Assembly (NCBI GenBank): GCA_000310025.1
Contig: FN648511.1
Span: forward strand, 49,342-73,365
Direction: 5' to 3'
Source: Ectocarpus siliculosus
Taxonomy: Eukaryota; Sar; Phaeophyceae; Ectocarpales; Ectocarpaceae
DNA length: 24,024 nt
Shown: in pieces, positions 1-15,100 of the stretch
Position numbering within the stretch: the first letter of the stretch is position 1
Layout of the letters: each line of letters opens with the position of its first letter
Program-made: the position numbers and the translations under genes
Notes under the pieces: generated by a model
Seen by the model: the letters and a program-made list of their open reading frames with translations, nothing else
What the model was told of the DNA's origin: nothing
The model's database searches: none

Positions 1-146
1 ACAGGACCGATCACCGATGGCCAACCGTTCCTTCCTACTTCGCCAATGGTGGCTCAAAAATGTCGTCCCTAGTCTATCTATCCCAACGATATCACTTCCC
101 GCCTTTCTTTTCAAACCACTTCCTACTCCCCAGTACAGCTATCTAT

Positions 147-1440
147 CTATACCGTCCTCTCCTCTCTATTCCATGCCTCAAACATCCCCCTGAACTTCCC
201 TTGTATTTTTCCCAGCTCAGTCATGTGCACTTCCCTCTCCTCTTCGTACAACTGACATTCCGCGACTACATGAACACGGTCTTCGCACTCGAAACGCAAT
301 CAATCACATTTGAACTTGTCGTCTTCGTTGTCTACCGTCCTATGTCTTCGTCGACGTTCTCGAAGGCCTATGTGCCCGGTCCTGAATTTGACCTTAAGCT
401 TTGTTCCTGCATCCATTGGTCCATGTAGGTAATCCTTGAGCCCTATTCCTTCTTTCAACATTCCGTACACTTCTAGACCCTCCTTATCCTCGGTTTCTTT
501 CCTTAGATTCTGTTTTTCTCTCTCGGCACAAGCAACAGATATCTTCTCCTTGAACCCCTGTACACTGTAGTAGACCCTCCGTTTCCAGGGTTTCATCTTC
601 GTCGGTTTCGAACCCCTTCCACACGTGCTCTACAACCTTGACCCATTTTGTGGGTTGTCTACCCCTCGTTTTGTTTGCCTACTTCGCCTCCCGTACTATT
701 CTCGGCAACCTCTCCTCTCCCACCCCGCACATGCGATACTGCCATGTCAGCTTCCTTGCGTCTCTTCCCGACCGTGGGGATTGGATCCCCAATTCTGCCC
801 TGACGGCTGCATTACTTGTGCGCTTGGAGCATCCTAGAATGATTTTGCTTTCATCTGCGCCGCCTCGAGTTCTTTCACTACCTTCTTATTTCCTTCCCAT
901 GCTTCTCCGACGTACGGTACGATTACGCTCTTCAAAATCGTCAATTTGATGCGTGTATCGAGGTGCCGGTTTGAGAGTATTGGGTGCAGCTTCCCTGCTC
1001 GTGCTTTACCCTTTTCCGCTACCTTGAAAATGTGTGCATTCCACGAGCAGTCTTTTGAGATCTCTACTCCGAGGTATGTGTACTGGTCCACTACTGCAAT
1101 CTCCTCGATACCCCACTTCCACCTGTATTCTATTGGTTCCTCCCTGTCCTCGTTGCATACCATGACGGCACTCTTCTTAACGTTGGCAGACAATCTCCAC
1201 TTATCAGTAAACTTTTTCGCCGCATCAATTTGCAGTTGCAGTCCCTCAGGGGTGTCCGACATACCAACAAAATCATCCGCAAACAGCATTCCTGACAACG
1301 AAGTTTCCGTGTCCGCTGCTTTTACTCCCTTCCGGACTGCCTCTACGACTTCCAACAGATCGTTGATGAACACCTGGAACAATGTTGGGGACAGCGTGCA
1401 ACCTTGTGGGACCCCCTGTTCAATGTCGAAGAACTTTGAC
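147..1440 (-). pseudogene. Decayed LINE (non-LTR retrotransposon) reverse transcriptase, 5'-truncated
   Basis: On the minus strand, from about 1440 to 840, an open stretch encodes the C-terminal half of a non-LTR retrotransposon reverse transcriptase. It shows motif B (QGVPQGCTLSPTLF), the catalytic motif C (FADDFVG), then QYTYLGVEISKD and a thumb-like segment ending WEGNKKVVKELEAAQ. A frameshift near 840 moves the homologous reading to another frame (ILGCSKRTSNAAVRAELG), which runs to an in-frame TAG at 679-681. Related sequence continues to a TGA at 300-302, then a degenerate Cys/His segment (FECEDRVHVVAEC) and further similarity down to a stop at 147-149. The fingers region and everything 5' of motif B are missing. 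The break coincides with the repeat copy that starts at about 1441. At least one frameshift and three stops mean it cannot make an active enzyme. The LINE identity is strong; the clade is not determined. Confidence 0.9.
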
Positions 1441-2006
1441 AGGGGGAGGGGGGGTGTACTCATAGTCGTGCATGCCGTACGTAGTTGTTAGACCATTGAC
1501 CTCGCATCCCCACAAAGCCGGGACGGAGGACGCCGGATTCTCACCGGACCAGGCTCTCACATCACCAAGCACGAAGCGCCGTGAGGTATTCGGCGAGTCG
1601 CATGAAGGGTGCACTGAAATCTGCTAAGGGTGTTCGGCATCTTCTGCTTACGTCCTTGCGTACGGATGACAGCTGCGTATGACTTGATTTATTTTCTGGT
1701 GATTTCGCTTCCAGAGACAGTTGTAAGCACTGTGTAACTGCCTCGAGGGTGCTTGACCAATTTAATACAAGGTGGTGCAATTATCCCCCTTTGCGCGTAG
1801 TGAGGGTTCTCGACCCCGCACAAGAGGGTTCCCGACCCCGCACAACATAAGCTACTCGATCACCATTCATGGTTACCGAAAAAAAAACACACGAAAGGCA
1901 AAAAAAAAGCGGTAATAACCTGGTTACCAATCTCACGAAGTGATCGGCTTGTTTTACAACATCGCTGCCAAGCGATGAAAACCCAACCCCGGTGGCAAAC
2001 ACCGGG
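1441..2006 (-). mobile_element. Non-autonomous C-tailed repeat, copy A
   Basis: About 550 bp here match the reverse complement of 10661-11315 at roughly 90% by eye over the best 370 bp. The common end reads TGTACTCATAGTCGTGCATG on the plus strand from 1455. It directly abuts a G-run (1448-1454), so it is a C-tract in the element's probable sense orientation, minus. The other end holds one copy of a roughly 60-bp hairpin-bearing unit that is triplicated in copy B. Copy A has a short internal duplication near 1800-1850 that copy B lacks. There is no coding capacity. It interrupts the LINE remnant, so it arrived later or marks a recombination point. The class is unknown: a short retroposon (SINE-like) or another non-autonomous element. 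Confidence 0.8.
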
Positions 2007-2203
2007 GGGAGCAAACCTCGGGGGGGGGAGGTCGCGCCCCGAAGTGGGCAGGTATTCCCGCATCTCGGAGAGTAGCGTTATTCCAACTGACACGGTGGGC
2101 TGGCAGCGTAGACAATAAAAATACATTGTGTTCATAGTCGATCACGGCCTCCCAACCTCCCCACTCAACCCTTGACAAGTTGTGATCGGTGCACAACCTA
2201 CAC
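2005..2203. mobile_element. Foldback/MITE-like repeat, copy 1 (degenerate)
   Basis: Its centre shares an ordered series of blocks with 3163-3422: TCCCGCATCT, a GTTATTCCAA-like block, a CGGTGGGCTG-like block, and the right-hand CGGCCTCCCAACCTCCCC. The two flanks are imperfect inverted repeats of each other: a G-rich block with GGGGAGGT on the left, and CCTCCCAACCTCCCC followed by GGTGCACAACCTACACC on the right. The left edge merges with the end of repeat copy A, so that boundary is approximate. It has no coding capacity. The structure suggests a short non-autonomous DNA transposon. Confidence 0.6.
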
Positions 2204-3162
2204 CTCAAGCGAGGGGGGTTGTTGTACTGAACTAGATAGAACACTCGCTCGCGCGAACGGTTGTTGGTCGACAACTGCTGCTTATGATCTGTCTTGTTGT
2301 AGGCGAAGCACGAATCCCAATAGCGGTATGACGAGAGTGAACGCGTGGGGAAAAAGACCGAGGGGGCATGGATGCGCCCCCTTCGTAGCAAGTAAGTGCG
2401 TCCCTGTCGATATTGCCAGGGTCATGCTGTGCGTGCAAGAAAAACTCCTAATCAAGAAAAATCATTTGTAATTTTCAAGCGATCGCGCGTAGGGTCGGCG
2501 CAAAACCTGAATCACGAGTAGTATAATATGATAGTTACGAATCTAACAAGGTTCCTTACACCATGATGTAGGGACAATTTTGCATAGTATATGCAAACGT
2601 CTGGTGTTTCCCGCAACGAACCACATCGCAGACGTACGATAAGACCATCGACAGCAAGACGGGCCAGTCGTAGGCGAAGGGACCAAAACTAATTCCCCTG
2701 GGCTGCTACAATACCCCGAACAACAATGGCAAGGACGTATGATCATAAGTTTGACTCTAACGGGGGGGGGGGGGGGGGGGGGGAAAGGGACAAAAACCCC
2801 CCAAAACTTTCCCCCCCCCAAATTTTGGTCCAAAAGAAAAAACAATCTAAATTTTCCAAAAACATCCACCGAGGTAAAGCGATTGTTGCCCAAAAAAATG
2901 TCACCGTTCTTGTACGGTTGTCCAGATGCACTTCGGGGGAGTCAAGCCATTTGCGTCCCCCCTCTGTTGGCATCTGTTAGCCGGGACAACACAAGAAGGT
3001 GCAAGAGCTCGTAGTAGTCTACTGTGTTTCATTTGTTGTCAGCATCGACCGAGCTAACCAACAGACCAATCAATGAAAAGAGGCGGTCTGTTTCAGTACG
3101 CTTGAAAACACAAGTAAGTGATTTCTCGACGTGTATGTGTAGGTGGTGCATAGTAGGTGGGT
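2204..3162. other. Intergenic, no gene seen; contains a 22-G run
   Basis: No recognisable coding sequence or RNA gene is visible. A run of 22 G occupies 2762-2783. It is followed to about 2860 by alternating runs of C, A and T that look like degraded base calling more than natural sequence. Any translation through this patch is a glycine or proline homopolymer. Confidence 0.6.
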
Positions 3163-3422
3163 CACTGGTGTCCATAGGCAGGTTGTGGGTAGGTTGGGGC
3201 ACCGACTACAACCTCGGGGGCGGGGGGGGGGGTTGCAGGGAGGTTGCAGCCGCAAGTGTGCTAGTTGTCCCGCATCTTGGATTCTGGCATTATTCCAATC
3301 AAATACGGCGGGCTGCAAGCCTGAAGAAAAAATGGGTTCAAGGTAGAACTCGCGGCCTCCCAACCTCCCCCCCCCCAGGTAGGTTGTGGTTGGTGCCCAA
3401 CATGCCCCTCTGGCCACCAGTG
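3163..3422. mobile_element. Foldback/MITE-like repeat, copy 2 (better preserved)
   Basis: About 260 bp begin with CACTGGTG (3163-3170) and end with its inverse CACCAGTG (3415-3422). The inverted similarity continues inward: CCATAGG against CCAGAGG, then TTGGGGCACCGACTACAACC against TTGGGCACCAACCACAACC read from the other end, then a G/C tract, then GGGAGGTTG near both ends of the core. Each arm is therefore roughly 80-100 bp and imperfect. The roughly 90-bp core resembles that of copy 1. No clear target-site duplication is visible. It has no coding capacity. A non-autonomous DNA transposon is the simplest reading. Confidence 0.7.
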
Positions 3423-3928
3423 GTTTGATGTATTTTTGCATGCACGATGCGAAGTGGATAGAAAATGACACCACCAGGACTCGCCGCCAACCTCATTGTC
3501 CGGAAGAATAAAGATGCAAGTATGTGTGGCCTGAAGCCGGAGTAAGACATTCTGGTGTGGCGGGAAATTGTTGCAGAACCAACCGTCCGTGTCTTCTCTG
3601 TGCCGTTGTAAGGAGGGCTTGTGGGTTTCAACCTTTCTTCATGGCCAGGTGACGGTGGTCTCTGCGATAGTTCTCCTTCGTACGTATTTCTAGCCCCGGT
3701 AGTTAGTTGTTGCCATGTCTACACAGTACTACAATTTGACGTTGTTGTTATTGGTGTCATTCTCCCATATACCAGCAAGCAGCATGATTCCGTCGTCTAC
3801 GGTATATTATTAGAGGGAATCCACGTGTTGTTGAAATGACGTGAAAGATTGACATTTCAGGAAGTTTTGACGTGAAGAGGTTGCGCCGCTTTTTGGGGGG
3901 CAAACTCTGACGGCGAAATTTTTGTGAG

Positions 3929-3986
3929 GAAGCGTCAAAATTAAATTTCACCCAAACATAAAACGACGCGAAAAGATTGACGCTTC
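3929..3986. repeat. Short inverted repeat, 10-bp arms
   Basis: GAAGCGTCAA (3929-3938) is the exact inverse of TTGACGCTTC (3977-3986), with a 38-base AT-rich spacer. The surrounding 3840-3990 and 4650-4740 are rich in TTGACG/CGTCAA words. They may be fragments of one old repeat. Confidence 0.5.
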
Positions 3987-4414
3987 AAACATCGCCAGAC
4001 TGTGGCTCACACACGCTTGCTCTGCTGCGGTCTGCTGTGCGCGGTCAGCAGCGAACACATTGGCCATGCCTATACTGATTGCTCCTAGCGGTCCTGCACC
4101 CACGCGTCTCGGCAGTTCTCACGGCGGCCAAGAGGCCAGACGCGCGTGTTCGGCGCGCGCGTTCGGTAGATGCGCCGTCGCGATTGCGCACGGGCTTTCA
4201 GCAGCAAAAAGGGGCATAGGCAGGGGAGTGATTGGGGGAGTCTCGCCCTCGAAGGCAGCACATGGAGAGGAGTAAGGGAGGGTACACGGACTTTGCCAGT
4301 CAGTAGGTGCATTTCGCCCGCCCCCTCACGGGGTTCGGTGCTCTGCTGCCGCAGTGACATCGGTATATACACAGCAGTGCAGCGAGCAGCTGCCTTACTC
4401 ATCAGCAACGAACG

Positions 4415-4460
4415 GCAGTTTGACGCCTGGGAAGTCGCAGTTTGACGCCTGGGAAAAGTC
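4415..4460. repeat. Tandem duplication of a 22-24 bp unit
   Basis: GCAGTTTGACGCCTGGGAA occurs at 4415 and again at 4437, the copies differing by two extra A in the second. It is a simple tandem duplication with no evident function. Confidence 0.85.
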
Positions 4461-5300
4461 GCCGCGGCAAAGGAGGGAAGGTCGGCGGGATGAGGCGAAG
4501 GGGTACACCTAGTCTCCTGGGAGCCTGGGGGTGTGAGTCTTCGCTTCGGAATGTCGACCCTGGGTGGCAGCCCGAACCAACCTTGAACTCTACCTCCACC
4601 ATTTTTTTTTTTCACCTCTCACGTGTCAACGGGCACACGCGGTGCGAATTTTTTCCCGTCAAAACCCTCAACCACCGTCACTTTATGTTGGCGTCAATCC
4701 TCAAAGGTCAAAGGTCAAAATTCCGCGTCAATCCATAGTGGATACCCTATATTATTATGCCGAAAAGTCAACGCGGGGAGAGGTCCGAGAGGTCTCATTC
4801 CGATTGGGATGTCGCAAAACGCGCACAAACGCACGCAACACGGGTTTGTCTCATCGCCCACTCTACGTACGGTGGTAGCACACCTGACCAAAACATTACG
4901 CTCGCATATCGTGTAGACTACATGGTGTTGGTCTCTGTCGACCACACACGCACGCATGTCGTGGGAGCCTGCGCGAGCCAGGGTGACCGCATGCGATATG
5001 CGATGCGTCCCCTCGCGTCGTCAAGGAAAATCAATGGTTGGTTGTGAAACGCGATGTACAGTAGTACGGTAGTAGTCTGCACTGTAGTAGATTACATGGT
5101 CTCTGTAATGATGAGATGACATCTGAATTACATTAGTCTATGTTACGAAACATGGGAACTCAGTGGTGTTGCGCTGGTTGCAAAGGGCATCCCGCGTGTG
5201 TGTATGTATCAGCGATGGGCGATTTGATGACTACGTCGCGTATACATCCGCGAGTGAGTGTACAGCAGAGGTAGAGAGAAATGTTTGAGAGAGGGGCGTC

Positions 5301-5576
5301 TGTGAAAAGAGGGAACCGTCCTCGACAGACGTTGGGGAGTTTCTACCTTTATGAAGGTGGTCTCCACATTATTACCCCCCCCTTTTTTCGAGACTTTTTC
5401 TTGTTTTCCAGGCAAGAGAAGTCTTCTTGGGGTAACCGGAACCCGACCGGCTGGCGGCGGGGCGATTCACATTCCTCACAATCCTCTGACATCTCACGTC
5501 GACGCCATTGTGAAAAGAGGGAATCGTCCTCGACAGACGTTGGGGAGTTTCTACCTTTATGAAGGTGGTCTCCACA
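5301..5576. repeat. 68-bp direct repeat pair
   Basis: 5301-5368 and 5509-5576 are identical except for one C/T difference in the GGGAACCG/GGGAATCG block. They are offset by 208 bp. Weak similarity continues beyond the right edge (ATTACC in both). The 140 bp between the copies is unrelated to either copy. Confidence 0.9.
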
Positions 5577-6419
5577 CGTCCTTCATTACCAACCAGCACA
5601 GTATCTGCTAGATGGCACAGTGTTGCCTTCGTTAAAAGTTCATGGAATGTTCCATGATGGGGGCGGCTGCAACATTTCTCGCGCATGTTTGAGTTTCCTA
5701 AATGGGGAGTACTTACAGCTGTATCTATGCATTCGTTCCAAGAAGACACTGGTGCTGAACGGTAAAAAATTACCGCCTGTTACTGCTGCTGCTGTCCTCT
5801 CGACGGTCGTTGGTTCGTTTGGGGTTCAACTGCTTTTTCTGTTTTCATTAATCTACTGCTGTACATGTACAGCGGCACTTCTCTGTCTTTTTTGCACCTG
5901 CAGCCAAGAGAGAGTTATAGATGCATTCACTGGTAGTGCTGTACCTGCTGATACGTCAAATGTACACCGAAAGATGCAGACTGGCGCCACCATACATACC
6001 TGTGGGCACGACGCAAAATATCTAGTTTTTTTTTAAACAGTTGACAGTTTCGGCCGAAAATTGTAAAAAGATTACACGCCTCCCATCCCACGGAACACCG
6101 GATCTCCGTATTTCGTGGTTCCCCACTCCCCGCGTTGCCAACACTTCAAACGAAGGACCAAGTCACGCTACTCTCACCTCTCTATCTCTCTCGCGTTTCT
6201 CTTGTGCTCGCATACAACGGACTGTGTCGTGTCATTCCTTCCCACTGCACAAGCGGCTTCAGCTCTATCGGGAAAGAGGAAAGACGAACCGGTTTGTCTG
6301 CGAATAGCGTTTTTGGGCGGCTCTTTGCTCTTTGCTGTAGGTCGCTCGTCCACAAGAGATCCTTGTGTACTAACCAACGCAACGCTCGGGGAAGTATCAT
6401 ATCGCATACCCCCACGACG

Positions 6420-8555
6420 ATGGCGGAAGTCGGCCAAAAATTCGACGACGTTCTCCGGAACCTGGCGGGCCAGGCAGGGTCCCTCGAGGCCTTGCTAGGG
6501 GCGTTCTTTTCCTTCCTCCACAGGAACACCGACTTCTATGTCACCTTCGATCCCACCAAGACGGCCAGGGCGGGCATGGGCTTCCCGGCTGGAAAGGCGG
6601 AAAAGCTCCTCCTCCGCGCGTTCCGATCCTTCCCGTACAAGTCGTACGGAGTCCAGGACGAGCAACTGCCGGCGGCAGCAGGGAGAGGGCGAGGACCAAC
6701 ATCGGCGAAGGAAGTTGCTGCGACAAAAATTGGCCCTGCCGGGGGCTCAATCTCGCGGAAGAACGATACCCGATCTTCTCCTCGGGATACAAAAGCCGGC
6801 GGCGTCGACACCGCCCCTGGGCGTGGCGGTCGTGCCCCGGCACCACAATCTTCAGCAGCAGCAGCAGCAGCTGCTGCTGCTGCACCATCATTACCATCGG
6901 CGTCAACTCCCGGCGAAGGCTCCGTCGCTCCTTCCTCCACGACAACCCCGCCTCCTGAACCACCAACCACCGCCAATGACAAACCGGCGGCGGCGGCGGC
7001 GGCGGCGGCGGGAGGCGTAAGCGTGCGCTACACGAAGGACGGAAAGCAGGTGCCTATCGGCAACGGCGGCGTAACCGACAGGTACTACTGGACGCAAACA
7101 GTAAATGAAGCCACGGTGTACGTCGACGTGCCCCCCGGCACTCGCTCCAAGGACGTGTCTTGCGTCATTCAGCCTAGATGGCTGAAGCTAAAAGTAAGAG
7201 GTGCAGGCGCGGCGGGAGGGGCGGGGGCAGCAGCAGCAGCAGCGGGAGCAGCAGCAGCGGGAGCAGCAGCAGCGGGGGCTGAGGACGTGGTTTTCGACGG
7301 GGAGCTACCGAGCGCGGTGTCGCGGGAGGACAGCATGTGGAGCCTGAACGACGGCAAGACGGTAGTGATATCTTTCGAGAAGACGACCAAGTCGTGGTGG
7401 AAGAGCGTCGTCGAGGGTGACCCGGAGATAGACACCTCCAAGGTGGGATTCAGTTATATCGACGGCGACGATCGGCTTTCTCCAGACTCTTACTGAACGT
7501 GCAGCTTGCTTTGTCGCTGTCGCCAACCTCACTACAAGCACCGCCATACATACCGTAGGTTGCGTAACGTACCACACCCCCTGGACCGATTTAAGAGCTT
7601 GATTACAGTACTCCACGACGAAGGGGATGCCACGGTCAAATAACGCACTATTTTCGAGACGGTTCCAACCCCGCCGTTTCAGCACAGTCACGTTTTTTGC
7701 TGCAGAGGGATGGAGATTTGATAGAGGCTCCAGGAGGTGCGGTATCTCGTGCAACCAACGGTACACCATTGTTGTTGAATTTTTGTTTCGTCTTGCCTTC
7801 GTGACTTCCGCTTTGTATTTGAGTGCCAAGTGCCAAGACTTTTGCGTGATAGTGGTGGCGGCACCGCCTGGCTTTGGGGCGAGGCAGGCGGGCCGACGAC
7901 AGAAACCAAGCACAATTTCTAGCTGTTTCTCCTTCAGGCCGCAGCGGTAGCAATTGTTGGAGCTACGGCAGGTCACCGAAGGACAACGTGAAGACCGGCA
8001 GCCCTTTCGCGACTGCGTCCAAGCTCAATCAAGAACAACACGATTTTTTGGTCTTGAGTCAAACCCGGAACTCGCTGTGTGCTGTTGTGGATAGACACGG
8101 AAACGCGGAGATCGGACTGACCTGCTCCGTTTTCACGATTCAGTACCTTCTTGTCAGTACAGCAACAGTGAAGAATGTTGAAGTTGGTTACCTTCCCGCG
8201 ATCCACACTCGCCATTCGGTGTCCACTCCATATCCGAATGTAGACATTAATATGTGTACCACTCAATCCTTGTACGTCCATATTTCTTGTTGTGGTTCAG
8301 GTCGACTCAACCACCAAGATCAGCGAGTACGACGGGGAGACTCAGGGCGCGATCCGCAAGATCATGTTCGACCAGCGGCAGAAGTCGCTCGGCCTTCCAA
8401 CGAGCGACGAGCTCAACGCCGACGCTCTGCTTGAGAGGGCCAAGGTCTTGCCGGGCAGCCCGTTCCTTCCGGGCGGCGTGCTCTTCGAGGGAGATAGCGG
8501 TGCCGGCGTTGTCGGTGGTGGCGGCGATGGCCTTGGACCCGATGGTGTGTGTTGA
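6420..8555 (+). CDS. NudC-family co-chaperone (NUDC/NUDCD3-like), two exons
   Basis: Exons 6420-7442 and 8301-8555 encode 425 residues. The intron 7443-8300 has a GTGGGA donor and a TTCAG acceptor, phase 0. The ATG at 6420 is the first in its frame. Residues 8-70 match the NudC N-terminal helical domain (FFSFLHRNTDFY, then MGFPAGKAEKLL). Residues 80-215 are low-complexity with two polyalanine tracts. Residues 220-330 form a CS (p23-like) beta-sandwich domain (YYWTQTV, FDGEL, SMWSLNDGKTVVISFEK, WWKSVVEGDPEID). Exon 2 continues without a gap into YDGETQGAIRKIMFDQRQ and LGLPTSDEL, a NudC C-terminal signature, then GSPFLPGG as in NUDCD3. Family members are HSP90-associated co-chaperones linked to dynein function and nuclear migration. 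A 27-residue Ala/Gly insertion (261-287) lies inside the CS domain. The family is clear; the choice between NUDC and NUDCD3 orthology is not. Confidence 0.92.
6853..6882. repeat. (CAG)6(CTG)4 palindromic microsatellite in coding sequence
   Basis: Six CAG units run straight into four CTG units, giving a 24-bp perfect inverted repeat with no spacer. In the reading frame it falls on GCA and GCT codons and encodes most of a 10-alanine tract (residues 146-155) of the NudC-family protein. Confidence 0.95.
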
Positions 8556-10164
8556 CAGAGGTCCACCTTGCCCAGTTAAATAGAGCTCGCTTGATCTAGG
8601 CCGTCGAATCCTCGCGCTTGTGGGTCGTTCTCCTGCAGCTACAGTAGTAGGAGCGGCGGCGGCACTAGCTTCACTAGCTTCACAGCCGGCGACTATGGCG
8701 TTGATTCTGGTTTTAGGCCCGATGAATAGTTGAACGCGAGACACCAGTACGGCGGCCGTGGAGCCCCTTGTTTTTTTGGCGGAATGGTGTATTTGCTTCC
8801 ACGACGGCACCATGTGCGTGCAGGCACAAGTGTTTCAGGTGTCGGCGTGTGGATTTGTACTTCATGATGTTGCAGCCTGCAATGTATCAACGTCTCGACG
8901 GCGGCACGCATCTCATTGTTCATGCGAGGAAGAAGAGGTGCTGAATTTCCCCCTCTTTGTATGCACACGCGTATGTATGTGCTCTGGTTCTTCACTGCGA
9001 ATGGGTCTGTGGGAACTCACAAACCAACAGCAAAGCAGTAGTTTCTTCGGCGTTCTTGCACAGCTGTTTCGCGCCGGCCTCGAGAGAGGGGGTGCACCAA
9101 CATGACAAGTGTGACTTTCCACCGGTAGTGATTGCGCCGAATCCGATGCTGTGCATGTACAGTACGTACGCACCAACTGGACTGGGATTGCCTGCGCCGA
9201 CTACGGCTCCGCACTCCATTGCGTGTTTTCCGACACGTCTAACATCCAACGCGTACAACGGGATGTAATTCACAACCCCAGGCGTTCGCAACAGCTACAC
9301 GTGGTGGACGCAGTAGTATGTGTTGTGCTTGAACTGCCAACAACGGGGGTAAAAATGGTCCAGTCGAAATATTTATTGTCAATGGCTATATTCGTTTTTT
9401 ATAGGGTCAGAACAGAACAACCCCAGAGGGGACTTCTGAACGAGAGTCGACGAAGAGATGTTGAGGCCCATGTGCTTCTGTGATGGCGCGTGCGAGCGGG
9501 TGTGCAGCATACAGGTAGTTTTAGACGTACGCAAAATAACAACTTGCCGGGTACCCGGCGACGGTCCTCAATTACATGCCCCCGAAGCCCATAATCGAGC
9601 TTGCTTCATCGCACGGGCGCAGAGCAAGTGCTCCCAGCCCTGGCGCGACGTATCAGGTCTTTCAAACCATTGGGCATACAACACGGTTGAACTACACGGG
9701 AGAATAGTTGTCAAAAAGAGAGAGTGGGAGGGTTGCCGGCACAGAGCCAGTTCATGCCGACATTGAGGCAACCCCTTGCACAGCACGCTCTCTCTGTGCA
9801 CTCAAGTCTTCCACCGCTTGTTTCCTCTCTTTCGCAGTGTGATCGATAGCAAAAACGCTTGCTCATTGCTGCCAACCACCACAGACTCAGCAAGCTTGAG
9901 CAATTTTTTGGTTATTTTTTTTTTAGATCCTGCTGCCGATGGGAAGACCAAGACCCATCCACGACACACCGCCGATATCCGCCGCCGCAAAAACAGCTAC
10001 GAGGACCGGTGTATCAACAACTACCGATTGCCTCAGTCGAGATGACACGCGCGTGCCATCTAAAGCAGACGGACGAACAGGGTCTCCCTCTCCCCTCCCC
10101 CAAACCCGGCACCCTTTCGTCAAAAACTGAGGAGTCCGCGGAGCTGCTCCGGTCTAAGCTTTAT
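8556..10164. other. Convergent intergenic region; 3' UTRs expected, no gene recognised
   Basis: This lies between the stop of the NudC-family gene and the stop of the eL20 gene, which face each other. Most of it probably belongs to 3' untranslated sequence. One patch, 9926-10045, has a poly-T/AG acceptor-like start followed by an open, basic 36-40 codon stretch (GKTKTHPRHTADIRRRKNSY). I could not assign it to any gene. Confidence 0.5.
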
Positions 10165-10165
10165 T
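10160..10165 (-). promoter_or_regulatory. AATAAA overlapping the eL20 stop codon
   Basis: The minus strand reads TAAATAAA across the stop, so AATAAA shares its first base with the last base of the TAA. It may be a polyadenylation signal, which would imply a very short 3' UTR. It may also be chance. Confidence 0.35.
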
Positions 10166-12071
10166 TAGCCCAAGAAGGTGGTGGGACGCGACGCCTTGAA
10201 GGTAGTCCTGAACTTCTTCTTCGGCGCGCGCGGGAGGCGGTGAGTGAGGGGGAACTTGATGTTCGCGTTCTGCGAAACATGGAACAACCAGGAACACGGC
10301 CGTGCGAAAGGGGCAAGAGAGGCGACCAGTCACGTACGAGAAAGCAAGCCTGGGCCGCGCGAGATGATCTCTGTCTCCAGGCATGAAGCAGAGATGGCAC
10401 ACACAATGACCTGCTGGACGCACAGGTCCCACCCAACTTGGCGAGCTGGCAAAAATCAACACTGACAAACAAAATGATCTTTGCCCGGCCCCCTTCCTCT
10501 CCTGCTGGGAAACGTGACACGTCCCTTCACAGAACCGCCGAACGCCACAAAAGCGGGGCGTCCAGAAACCGTGACCTACACAGACCAAACACCGAAAGCC
10601 GGTGCCATCACTTCCTGGCCGTTGTCGAGAGGCACCCCCCCCCCCCCCCCCACCCCCCCCTCGGTGTTTGCCATCGGGGTTGGGTTTTCGTCGCTTGGCA
10701 ACGACGTTGTAAAACAAGCCGCCCCCCCCGGTGTTTGCCATCGGGGTTTGGGTTTTCGTCGCTTGGCAACGACGTTGTAAAACAAGCCCCCCACTCGGTG
10801 TTTGCCATCGGGATTGGGTTTTCGTCGCTTGGCAACGACGTTGTAAAACAAGCCAATTCACTTCGTGAACTCGACAACCAGGTTACCGTTTTTTTTTTTT
10901 TACCTCGTTGTTTTTTTTGGCGGTAACCATAATGGTGGTCGAGTAGATCATGTTGTGCGGGGTCGAGAACCCTCACTCCGCGCAACGGGGGATGATCGCA
11001 CCACGTTGTGTTAAAATGGTCAAGCTTTCTCGAGGCAGTTACACAGTGCTTACAACTGTCTCTGGAAGTGAAAGCACCAGAAAATAAATTAAGTCATACG
11101 TAGCTGTCATCCGTACGCAAGGAAGTAAGCACAAGATGCCGAACACCCTTAGCAGGATGCAGCTCACCCTTCATGCGACTCGCCAAATACCTCACGGCGC
11201 TTCGCGCTTGGTGATGTGAGAGCCTGGTCCGGTGAGAACCCGGCGTGCTCCGTCCCGGCTTTGTAGGGATGCGAGGTCAATGGTCAAACGACTACGGCAT
11301 GCACGACTATGAGTACCCCCCCCCCCCCCCCCCCAAAGAAGGCCAAATTGAGTGGCTACACTCCACCTTTTGGGAAGGGTGCAAGCTTGCAGTTGCCATA
11401 CTCTGCTTGCCGTGTTGCTGCACACACCGTTTGCAACCCCCCCCTCGGTGCAGAAATCGAGTTGCTTTACTCCACATGCGGTGACCGGTGACAAGCTAAC
11501 AGTTGCTACACTCCGCTTGGCGTGTTGCTATACACCCCGTTTACCGCCCCCCCCCCCCCTGATGCCGAAATTGAGTNNNNNNNNNNNNNNNNNNNNNNNN
11601 NNNNNNNNNNNNNNNNNNNNNNNNNNNNNNNNNNNNNNNNNNNNNNNNNNNNNNNNNNNNNNNNNNNNNNNNNNNNGGGTGGAAAGGGGGGGAAAAAAAG
11701 GAAGGGGGGGGTGTTTGGGGGCCTGAAAATGTGTTGCTTCCTGTGGGGTTTACCCCCCCCCCCCCCGGTTTTTTTTTGGGCTGTTGGGGGGGGTTTTTTT
11801 TTTTTTTTGGGGGTGGTATTTTTTGGGGGGGGGGTTGGGGGGGGGTTTTTTTTTTTTTTCCCCCGGGGGGGAAGGGGGGTTTTTCTCCCGGGGTTTTTTG
11901 TTGGGTTACCCGGGGTTTTTCCCCTTCCGGGTTTTTTAAAAGGGGGGCCGGGTTTTTTTTTTTGGTTTTTTTTTGGGGGGGTTGGGGCCTTTTTATTTTT
12001 TTTTTGGGGGGCCCCCTTTTTTTTGGAAGGGGCCCCAAAAGGGGGGCCCTTTTTTTTTGGGGGGTTTGGGG

Positions 12072-12102
<31 letters not shown>

Positions 12103-15100
12103 GCCCCGAAGCGGCCTCCCGCACCAACGGGACGAACGACTAAGCCGTCGAAGCGGCCCGCGGCATGACTTGCAGCAGGTGGGGGCACGCGGACATGAGT
12201 AGTTCTACGCTTGAGTTTCGCCTACACCACAATGGCCAAAATCGCCTTTGCCGCGGAAATCCCACGTGTACACGTACATACGCAAGTGGACGCCGTAGAC
12301 TTGTTCCGTTGTGCTGCCGCGGGAAATCTACGAGTGGAAACACTAGCCGTTGCGTCTTGGCTACATACAACAAGCGCCGTCCCGCAAGCTTTGAAGGTCA
12401 AAACCATCATTGAAGGGAGCCGGTGCTCTGAAAAACACAATCATCTCTCGCGATAAAAAAAATACTCACGTGGAACTGCTGCACGTCCGGGCGCTTGGTG
12501 TCCTTCGCCGCAACGATGCCCGTGCGGATGATCTGGATGGAGCGAGGGCGGCACCGGTGGCGGCCAGCCATCTCCGAGTCTGCTCCCAACAACCATGTCA
12601 TTGACCGAGAGACGAAATACAGCAGCAGCAGGAGCAGCCCCAGTGACGGCATTTTTGTCGAGATCGTCCGCGTTCCGTCAGCCCCAGCAAGCGTCACGCC
12701 ATGGTTACGAACGTACAGCAGCAGTCAGCACCGCCGAACAGGCGACATCAAGAGCAGCAAGCAACGACCCGGAGGGAGACGAAAATGGCGCGGGAGGATG
12801 GCGGGAGAGGGACACGAAACATCAGCAGACAACGATGGGCAACTTGCCGGTGCTACTGCTGCTGTAGGTAAAAAAAGCTCCACGATCAATAAAAGTTCCT
12901 GCACTGCCCCATATGGGACGCACGGGCGGGACAAGAACCAGATTCCTTTTCTATTTTTCGCTCGAAAACCAGCCGTTGAACGCGCAAGCCCTGCTCGGAC
13001 TGATCGCCGATACAAATCAACAGATTGCTTGCGATGGGGGTGGCGATGACACACTGGTACATGACTCTCGTCTTTGCCGTCCTTCGCGCTTGACACAGCA
13101 AAGCAAACGGGAAAAGAAATCAAGGGCAGCGCACCAATACCGCTCTGCAGCGTGCCGCTCCCACCGTTAGCAACAACCGTATACACCGGATGTCCCTGAC
13201 CGAACGAAACTACGGCACTTGTGTGCAGCCGTCCGCAACAGCTCCTCCTAATTGTTTCGGCAAAGGCAGCAAACGAGCCGAGTACTGCGAGTTGAAAAAT
13301 ACACAAAAACTTGTTAAACGTCAAGTTAAAACTTGTAGTACTCACACATCTGGTCCACGGCGCCGGTCAGGGTGAGGTCCCTGTACTCGCGGTACATGTT
13401 GTGCGTGCCGGAGCGGGAGTCGTAACGGAGCCAGATGCCGTAGTTCTTGATGATGCGAGCGTTCTTCTCCGTCAGCTGTTGTCACAAAAACAAAACAAAA
13501 ACACAAGCACAGCATTCGGAGCGCGGAAGCAAAAAGGTAGAGTCGAGCACAAGCGCCCATTAACAATCAGGGGCGGCGGCGGCAATTGGGTGCAGAAAAG
13601 CCAACGTCTACTCCTGAGCCAAAACCAGCGCGTGCCCGATGCTCGGCATCACTGCATCTATCAAAACATCAATACTGCATGATTTTGTAGAATTAACAAC
13701 AGAACTAATCGCCACCTGGCCGGGATGGGATTCTACGCTACACCATATCCTTGCACCCGCCACGGTTGCTACAGAACACCGCACCGTGTGACCGTATATA
13801 CCCCGGCTCAAACGCCATCAGCGAGCGGAAGCCGGCCGGCCAGCCGAGAAACGAACGCACCTCCACGATGTCGAGGATCTCCCCGGTGGTCTTCTTCATC
13901 TTACGCATCTGGTGCATGAGGTACCAGAACTGAGAGGCGCCGGTCACCTCGTTCGGCGCGAACACCTTCGGTGGTTTTCGATACGGGTGGTGGTGGATGG
14001 TATTCAAGGGAAAAAAAAAAAAAAACACACACACAAGGGGGCACACAGAGAGGGCGAGAGACGGGAGATGGGGGGGGGGGGGTGTACTCATAGTCGTGCA
14101 TGCCGTAGTCGTTAGACCATCGGAGATGGGGGGGGGAGAAACATCGGACAGATAGAGTTAGATTCCCAAGACGCGGCGGAACACCTAGCGCAGGCTCCAC
14201 AACGATTCCAAGCACACGCAGCAGCCCTACCAAAGCCACGATACAGTGTGAACCTCCCTAATAAGCAGCTGTGCCTTGACTTGCAACGAGACACGCCGAG
14301 GCGTACAGCCGGGAATTGAAAGCGTCCTCTCCACCTACGTGCAAGAGGAACTGCATGCACGGCGTTAAACACGGTGTCCTTGGCAATAATTGAACAACAA
14401 GGGAGGCCCTGCCGCCCACCCGAGATGGGTCTGAAGGAGAGTCATCTCTTTCCAAGCCCTTGCACTCAAGTCTCAACCGAGCCTACAGGGAAAAACGCTT
14501 CTCTAGAAAGGAACCTAGATGTTGCAAAGCAGCTGACATACAAACGACAGCACCTAAAACTCTGACTATTGCAACTTCTTCCTCCATTCGGTACACGACA
14601 GGGCTTGGAACCCAAGCAGTAGCAGCAGCAGCAGCTGCTGCTTGGTGCTGGCGCGAACACGCATCAAATAACTAGGTCTCGAGCTCCTTCATGCGAACAC
14701 AAATCAGCAGGTGGCGTATCCTCCATTGGGTACAAGGTACTGCCGTACCTCTGCCACATAAACGCCCGTTTGTTGCGATCGAAAAACGAAAACCACCAAT
14801 CACAGCCACATCAAAGATCGCGCATGCGCCTGAGGTAACTGCGAACGAGCAGTTGCCTTAACTCCATCCAGGATGAGACGAACGTAACGGTACCATCTAC
14901 TACGCACACGTCCGACTTGGTTATGACAAAACGTCCAACAGCAGGAACCGTAGTTTTTCCGAGAGCTTCTAGCGTGCGAGTGGCCACACAGACAAAAACA
15001 GGCGGAACGAATCACACACCTTCATCCGGTATACGGGCGGGTTCGGCTCCTTCTCCGTGACGGCCTTGCGGCCGACCACCTGGTACTGGCGCATGGCAAC

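Follow-up and report, generated by a model that had tools for sequence, protein, structure and literature searches.

Three copies of a short dispersed repeat, termed A, B and D, lie in a 24,024-nt stretch of Ectocarpus DNA (contig C484:49342–73365, the whole of which is called the window below), and each of them ends at a run of G or C. The locus raises the question of whether this run is the tail of a retroposon or the DNA into which the element was inserted, and which enzyme moved it. A preliminary description, made from the sequence alone, placed the three copies in one family with a common terminus adjoining the run and proposed a retroposon that ends in poly-C instead of poly-A, of which D would be an extreme 5′ truncation. 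Sequence and repeat comparisons bear out the single family: A and B match in opposite orientation over 344 nt at 92% identity plus a unit of 65–67 nt, and D together with its run matches B over 51 nt at 96%. The run lengths given there (7, 19 and 13) were also recovered, at 1448–1454 for A (inside the G-rich stretch 1442–1454), 11316–11334 for B and 14070–14082 for D. Two features had gone unmentioned: one to three tandem units of ~66 bp at the 5′ end, and a 15-nt duplication, GGAGATGGGGGGGGG, around D, which thus has the G-run on both sides. The coordinates are collected in Table 1.

Table 1. Repeat copies, runs and target-site duplications (TSDs) in the window.
Feature	Position	Strand	Basis
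LINE copy, 3′ half, 5′-truncated at the G-run 1442–1454	1–1441	−	92% over 1,455 columns to L041
G-rich run, common to the LINE 5′ side and the copy A 3′ end	1442–1454	+	Sequence
Copy A, short retroposon, 3′ end at 1455	1455–2009	−	Repeat comparison
Single 5′ unit of copy A	1943–2009	−	Inverted-repeat arms with copy B units
Copy B, full length, 3′ end at 11316	10653–11316	+	Sequence comparison
Three tandem 5′ units of copy B, ~66 bp each, a C-run in each	10653–10854	+	
C-run at the copy B 3′ end	11316–11334	+	Sequence
Copy D, cut to the 3′-terminal 38 bp	14083–14120	−	Sequence comparison and TSD
3′-side TSD copy of D, with 4 more G and T after it	14064–14078	.	
TSD copy on the 5′ side of D	14122–14136	.	

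Several other features were observed in the window. A 68-nt direct repeat (5301–5368 and 5509–5576) is 99% identical with 208 nt between its members, and similar text in two other loci of the genome (L049 and L120) marks it as another dispersed repeat. Similar G-run and "cctcccaacctcc" text, noticed by eye at 2020–2170 and 3200–3400, is perhaps another repeat pair. Beside copy B, the stretch 11577–12107 consists of an N run and then low-complexity G/T/C text that closes with a C-run; this has the appearance of an assembly problem. An exon at 6420–7196 encodes a Nudc_N domain (E 5e-20) and the beginning of a CS domain, and belongs to a NudC-like gene.

The family is abundant in the genome searched (189 Mb in 492 contigs). 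An exon for a type III polyketide synthase in this genome (L117) agrees with PDB 4b0n, an Ectocarpus siliculosus entry, in 91 of 91 residues, which makes Ectocarpus very probably the host genus; 4B0N and Ectocarpus are named together in PMC6274091. The 24-nt terminus GTACTCATAGTCGTGCATGCCGTA occurs at 2,805 places (1,342 + 1,463; at most two mismatches), a 30-mer from the middle of the body at 1,532, and a 35-mer taken from the 5′ unit at 2,619, often several times per copy; each reversed control gave 0 places. Since the probes are of unequal length, the gradient of truncation that can be drawn from these counts is only rough. The main sample comprised 100 of the terminus places, all exact matches and all on contigs C1 and C2; it thus consists mostly of young copies, is not random for the genome, and has the terminus present by construction. 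The far boundary is readable in 94 of these copies, the other six running into N. A second sample, not anchored at the terminus, was formed by the first 30 mid-body places, 17 of them on C1 and 13 on C2.

In sense order, the element consists of one to three C-run units of ~66 bp, a body with two T-runs, and a tail of ~95 nt ending in ...GAGTACA. Among the 53 sampled copies that reach the units, 20 have one, 22 have two, and 11 have three. Between the G-run and GTACTC stands a T in 82 of the 100 copies, a G in 16, and a C in 2. In the 3′ ends of ten copies of a LINE family described below, G stands at the position where the short element usually has A, and the last base before the run therefore seems to be owned by the element. 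A conserved 3′ stem-loop was considered and dropped as unsupported by folding energy, three 3′ ends folding no better than their shuffles (z 0.46, 1.44 and 0.65).

The size, copy number and LINE-like tail of the family are all SINE-like, and a strict SINE transcribed by RNA polymerase III from a tRNA, 5S or 7SL head would have these properties. Neither a pol III promoter nor such a head was found by Rfam comparison of copy B, in which no family exceeded the threshold and one sub-threshold match is attributable to chance, or by a tRNA search of copy B and five other copies. Moreover, runs of T would be expected to stop RNA polymerase III, and the body of one sampled copy, L010, has two such runs of 12 T each in its sense strand. 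A strict pol III SINE is accordingly very unlikely.

Truncation proved to be anchored at the C-tract end, as would be expected if this is the 3′ end of a retroposon. At the far end, 41 of the 94 readable copies are truncated, to 25–422 nt. The copies found by the mid-body probe, for which the terminus was not presupposed, carry the exact terminus in 16 cases and a mutated one in 12, the remaining two running into N; all 28 readable copies have thus kept their 3′ end. A variable C-tract end with a fixed opposite end, which the preliminary description had linked to a DNA transposon or Helitron-like element, was seen in none of these 30 copies. Together with the TSDs considered below, the anchored series agrees with a retroposon whose 3′ end lies at the C-tract, and D, with only the 3′-terminal 38 bp left between its TSD flanks, is indeed an extreme 5′ truncation. 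The breaks are clustered: 10 of the 41 truncated copies end at 45–51 nt, the LINE chimera L126 described below among them. Five others (L016, L031, L099, L106 and L110) have a common break exactly 98 nt from the 3′ end, with different flanks; the LINE-like tail (~95 nt) reaches nearly to this point. Pausing of the reverse transcriptase may, at a guess, lie behind such clusters. The boundary of 106 nt read for L120 is an artefact of a short SINE copy chained to a neighboring LINE fragment.

The flanks of the copies carry TSDs more often than chance allows. Each copy was scored by how well its two flanks match without gaps at their best position; on this scale, 10 of 40 truncated copies with clean flanks reach at least 14, compared with 3.7% of 1,560 mispaired flanks that are equally G-rich, and 0 of 10,000 permutations reach the observed mean. 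A smaller pass gave 8 of 32 copies, compared with 1.2% of mispaired flanks. The other 30 of the 40 copies score below 14, and many of their duplications could sit wholly inside the run. A second scoring required the duplication to be anchored, with a score of at least 12 and at least three non-G letters, and was applied to copies with clean flanks (40 truncated and 47 long) and to D, the far flanks of L028 and L120 being set by hand. Twenty duplications of 12–24 nt passed, namely those of 17 sampled copies, L028, L120, and D; those of long copies are less certain since the units themselves end in G-runs.

The position of the run relative to these duplications distinguishes a tail from a target. 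In 95 of the 100 copies, at least five consecutive G are present no more than 15 nt from the terminus (five termini have no such run), compared with 2.1% of 41,266 control positions drawn from the window with the family stretches left out. If a C tail, encoded or added, had been copied into the insertion, as in a true poly-C-tailed retroposon, the run would be that tail. The 1–10 extra Gs that stand at the terminus in 9 of the 20 anchored TSDs (four extra Gs in the case of D) are in line with such a tail, as are the very short 3′ UTRs of lepidopteran RTE elements, described in passages of PMC2887409 as simple repeats for which slippage was proposed. However, a run of at least five G also occurs in the far flank (first ~25 nt) of 32 of the 41 truncated copies, compared with 4.1% of control positions; 11 of the 20 anchored TSDs have no bases before the terminus other than the duplicated target and at most the last base of the element; and the far run exceeds the run at the terminus in 8 of the 20. 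A nick inside a pre-existing run explains the cases with no extra bases and those with a longer far run, and added C or later slippage explains the 9 with extra Gs. Collectively, these observations indicate that the C-tract is chiefly target DNA, lying in the TSD on both sides of the element. Because the run already belongs to the duplicated target, there is no need to invoke an added C tail. As a whole explanation such a tail was rejected for this reason, and a true poly-C-tailed retroposon is unlikely, although the extra Gs make some C addition possible. The ending in poly-C instead of poly-A is thus unsupported as worded in the preliminary description.

Individual copies add further detail to the picture of insertion into the run. 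In L028, a single TSD, GGTCACATTGGAGGGGG, encloses both the 3′ part of the element and, after it, a further piece of it in inverted orientation; this 5′ inversion resembles the twin-priming inversions of L1. In L120, three occurrences of one target, TTACCCGGGG, bracket a SINE copy and a LINE fragment that both used it. The junctions of L093 and L110 contain additional bases, not all of them G. The tandem units at one end, together with the head-to-tail order of some copies, might also be expected of a Helitron or of another DNA transposon in which one end carries variable repeats. Such an element was rejected on the variable TSDs, the truncation anchored at one end, the inversion, and the structure of copy B, which holds a single internal 12-nt inverted repeat pair and no terminal inverted repeats; the 3′ end in common with a LINE also speaks against it. 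It is the least probable of the explanations considered, the chance being close to nil.

The candidate source of the enzymes for retroposition of the element is the LINE family represented at the edge of the window. Its relative L041 has an ORF of 1,245 aa that combines endonuclease and reverse transcriptase (Exo_endo_phos and RVT_1) and matches the LINE-1 ORF2 protein at E 8e-28; the stop codon is followed by GAGTACG and a C-run. The tail of the short element matches the LINE 3′ end over 37 bp (84% identity, E 1.6e-6), the two 3′ ends falling in register, and the tails can be aligned over ~95 nt. Since they are only ~80% alike, another LINE could be the true driver. A 35-mer from the LINE 3′ end occurs at 634 places in the genome (at most three mismatches). 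Ten of the 40 copies listed besides L041 were fetched, and all ten have their 3′ ends at C-runs. Among the matching 5′ regions of these ten, the start region was found in one (L051) and the start motif is absent from nine, as it would be in truncated copies. L051 and L061 are the two ends of one LINE copy, which has CCCCCCCCCGGGCGAATTC at both.

Some relationships between the two families were pursued and set aside. Copy A was considered as an insertion inside the LINE with a recoverable empty site; this was rejected because the LINE homology ends at the G-run, so that copy A and the LINE adjoin at one run. A search for closer partner LINEs by way of two diverged relatives gave one place each in the genome. 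The SINE terminus is joined to LINE sequence at three places genome-wide (L126, G000:C12:3404242–3404291 and G000:C33:1453294–1453343). A LINE subfamily with an exact SINE-type terminus, for which L126 was the candidate, was rejected since there are only three such places, and these chimeras are likelier, perhaps, to result from template switching at the common tail.

Retroposition of the short element by target-primed reverse transcription (TPRT) of the LINE type is strongly supported by the anchored truncation, the TSDs, the two-sided G-run, the 5′ inversion, the common 3′ end, and the LINE ends at the same type of site. More specifically, we put the probability at about 85% that the family is a non-autonomous retroposon moved in trans by an endonuclease- and reverse transcriptase-encoding LINE of the family at window 1–1441 and landing in C/G runs. 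The RNA of the short element would end in the ~95 nt that resemble the LINE 3′ end, i.e., the end of the coding region and a 3′ UTR of a few nucleotides, and this tail would probably be recognized by the LINE protein, supplied by the 1–1441 family or a close relative. The endonuclease would nick the G-strand of a C/G run, either within the run or at its border, and the G-ended primer would start cDNA synthesis at the RNA 3′ end (...GAGUACA). The choice of G-runs may reflect a preference of the endonuclease, annealing between primer and RNA, or both. Synthesis would often stop early, leaving 5′-truncated copies, and second-strand cleavage would produce duplications that include the run, of 12–24 bp in the scored cases.

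The element may also shape its own surroundings. Another SINE or LINE piece lies within 150 nt on the C-tract side in 15 of the 100 copies, and genome matches show neighboring full copies in head-to-tail order. As the units carry C-runs, the element creates new targets of the type that it uses, although this is suggestive only. A broader and tentative proposal, which we hold to be possible but would not favor at present, is that the LINE and SINE form a system dedicated to mononucleotide C/G runs, with the choice of site aided by pairing of a G-run primer with a C-ended RNA; each full-length insertion, through its acquired C-run 5′ units, and each duplicated run would then add landing pads, and nested growth would proceed head to tail. 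Targeting of C/G runs would help explain both the head-to-tail nesting and the many C-tracts of this genome.

To date, one published family fits the short element closely. RTEX-N1_Ec32 of Ectocarpus is a non-autonomous element of ~600 bp with more than 6,000 copies, possibly a SINE, whose 3′ end is conserved with the autonomous RTE-X LINEs RTEX-1 and RTEX-2_Ec32 and whose 5′ origin was given as unknown (Dinatale et al. 2025, PMC12477816). Judged by this description, the two agree in size, abundance, LINE-conserved 3′ end and genus, with no difference apparent, and are very probably the same family; the RTE-X label for the partner LINE likewise comes from that description. A homopolymer target, one to three C-run 5′ units, and self-nesting were not found in the abstract, the first part of section 5 and matched passages of PMC12477816, and its main text contains "poly-c" and "g-rich" 0 times. 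In the titles and opening lines of abstracts covered, no C/G-run target was reported for such a LINE, which does not prove its absence from print; in PMC9942856, where "RTE-X" and "poly-C" both appear, the run belongs, in the passages seen, to a DNA transposon. Thus, the family itself has very probably been published already, and the target rule, units and nesting were not found in the literature covered. What is gained is a link from a repeat family, probably the most numerous one in a model brown alga, to both a candidate enzyme source and a target rule that is simple and can be tested.

Among known systems, the stringent-type LINE/SINE pairs likewise include a short element with a LINE 3′ tail, as far as PMC4176376 and PMC3747384 were consulted; the present element differs in that it has neither a pol III head nor a supported 3′ stem-loop. 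RTE-clade LINEs of Lepidoptera resemble the partner LINE, in the portions of PMC2887409 considered, in encoding both enzymes in a single ORF, in their very short 3′ UTR, in a simple repeat that closes the element at its 3′ side, and in being represented mostly by 3′ partial copies. Yet, the repeat there is the 3′ UTR itself, with slippage, whereas the run described here is mainly duplicated target. Insertion into a simple repeat is also a property of the (TG)n-specific Togen and other microsatellite-specific non-LTR retrotransposons, according to the sections of PMC4640811 used. Togen is placed there among NeSL relatives with a restriction-like endonuclease and has a dinucleotide target, whereas the LINE of this locus has an apurinic-type endonuclease domain and ends at a mononucleotide C/G run, a target that would extend the range of known microsatellite-specific LINEs.
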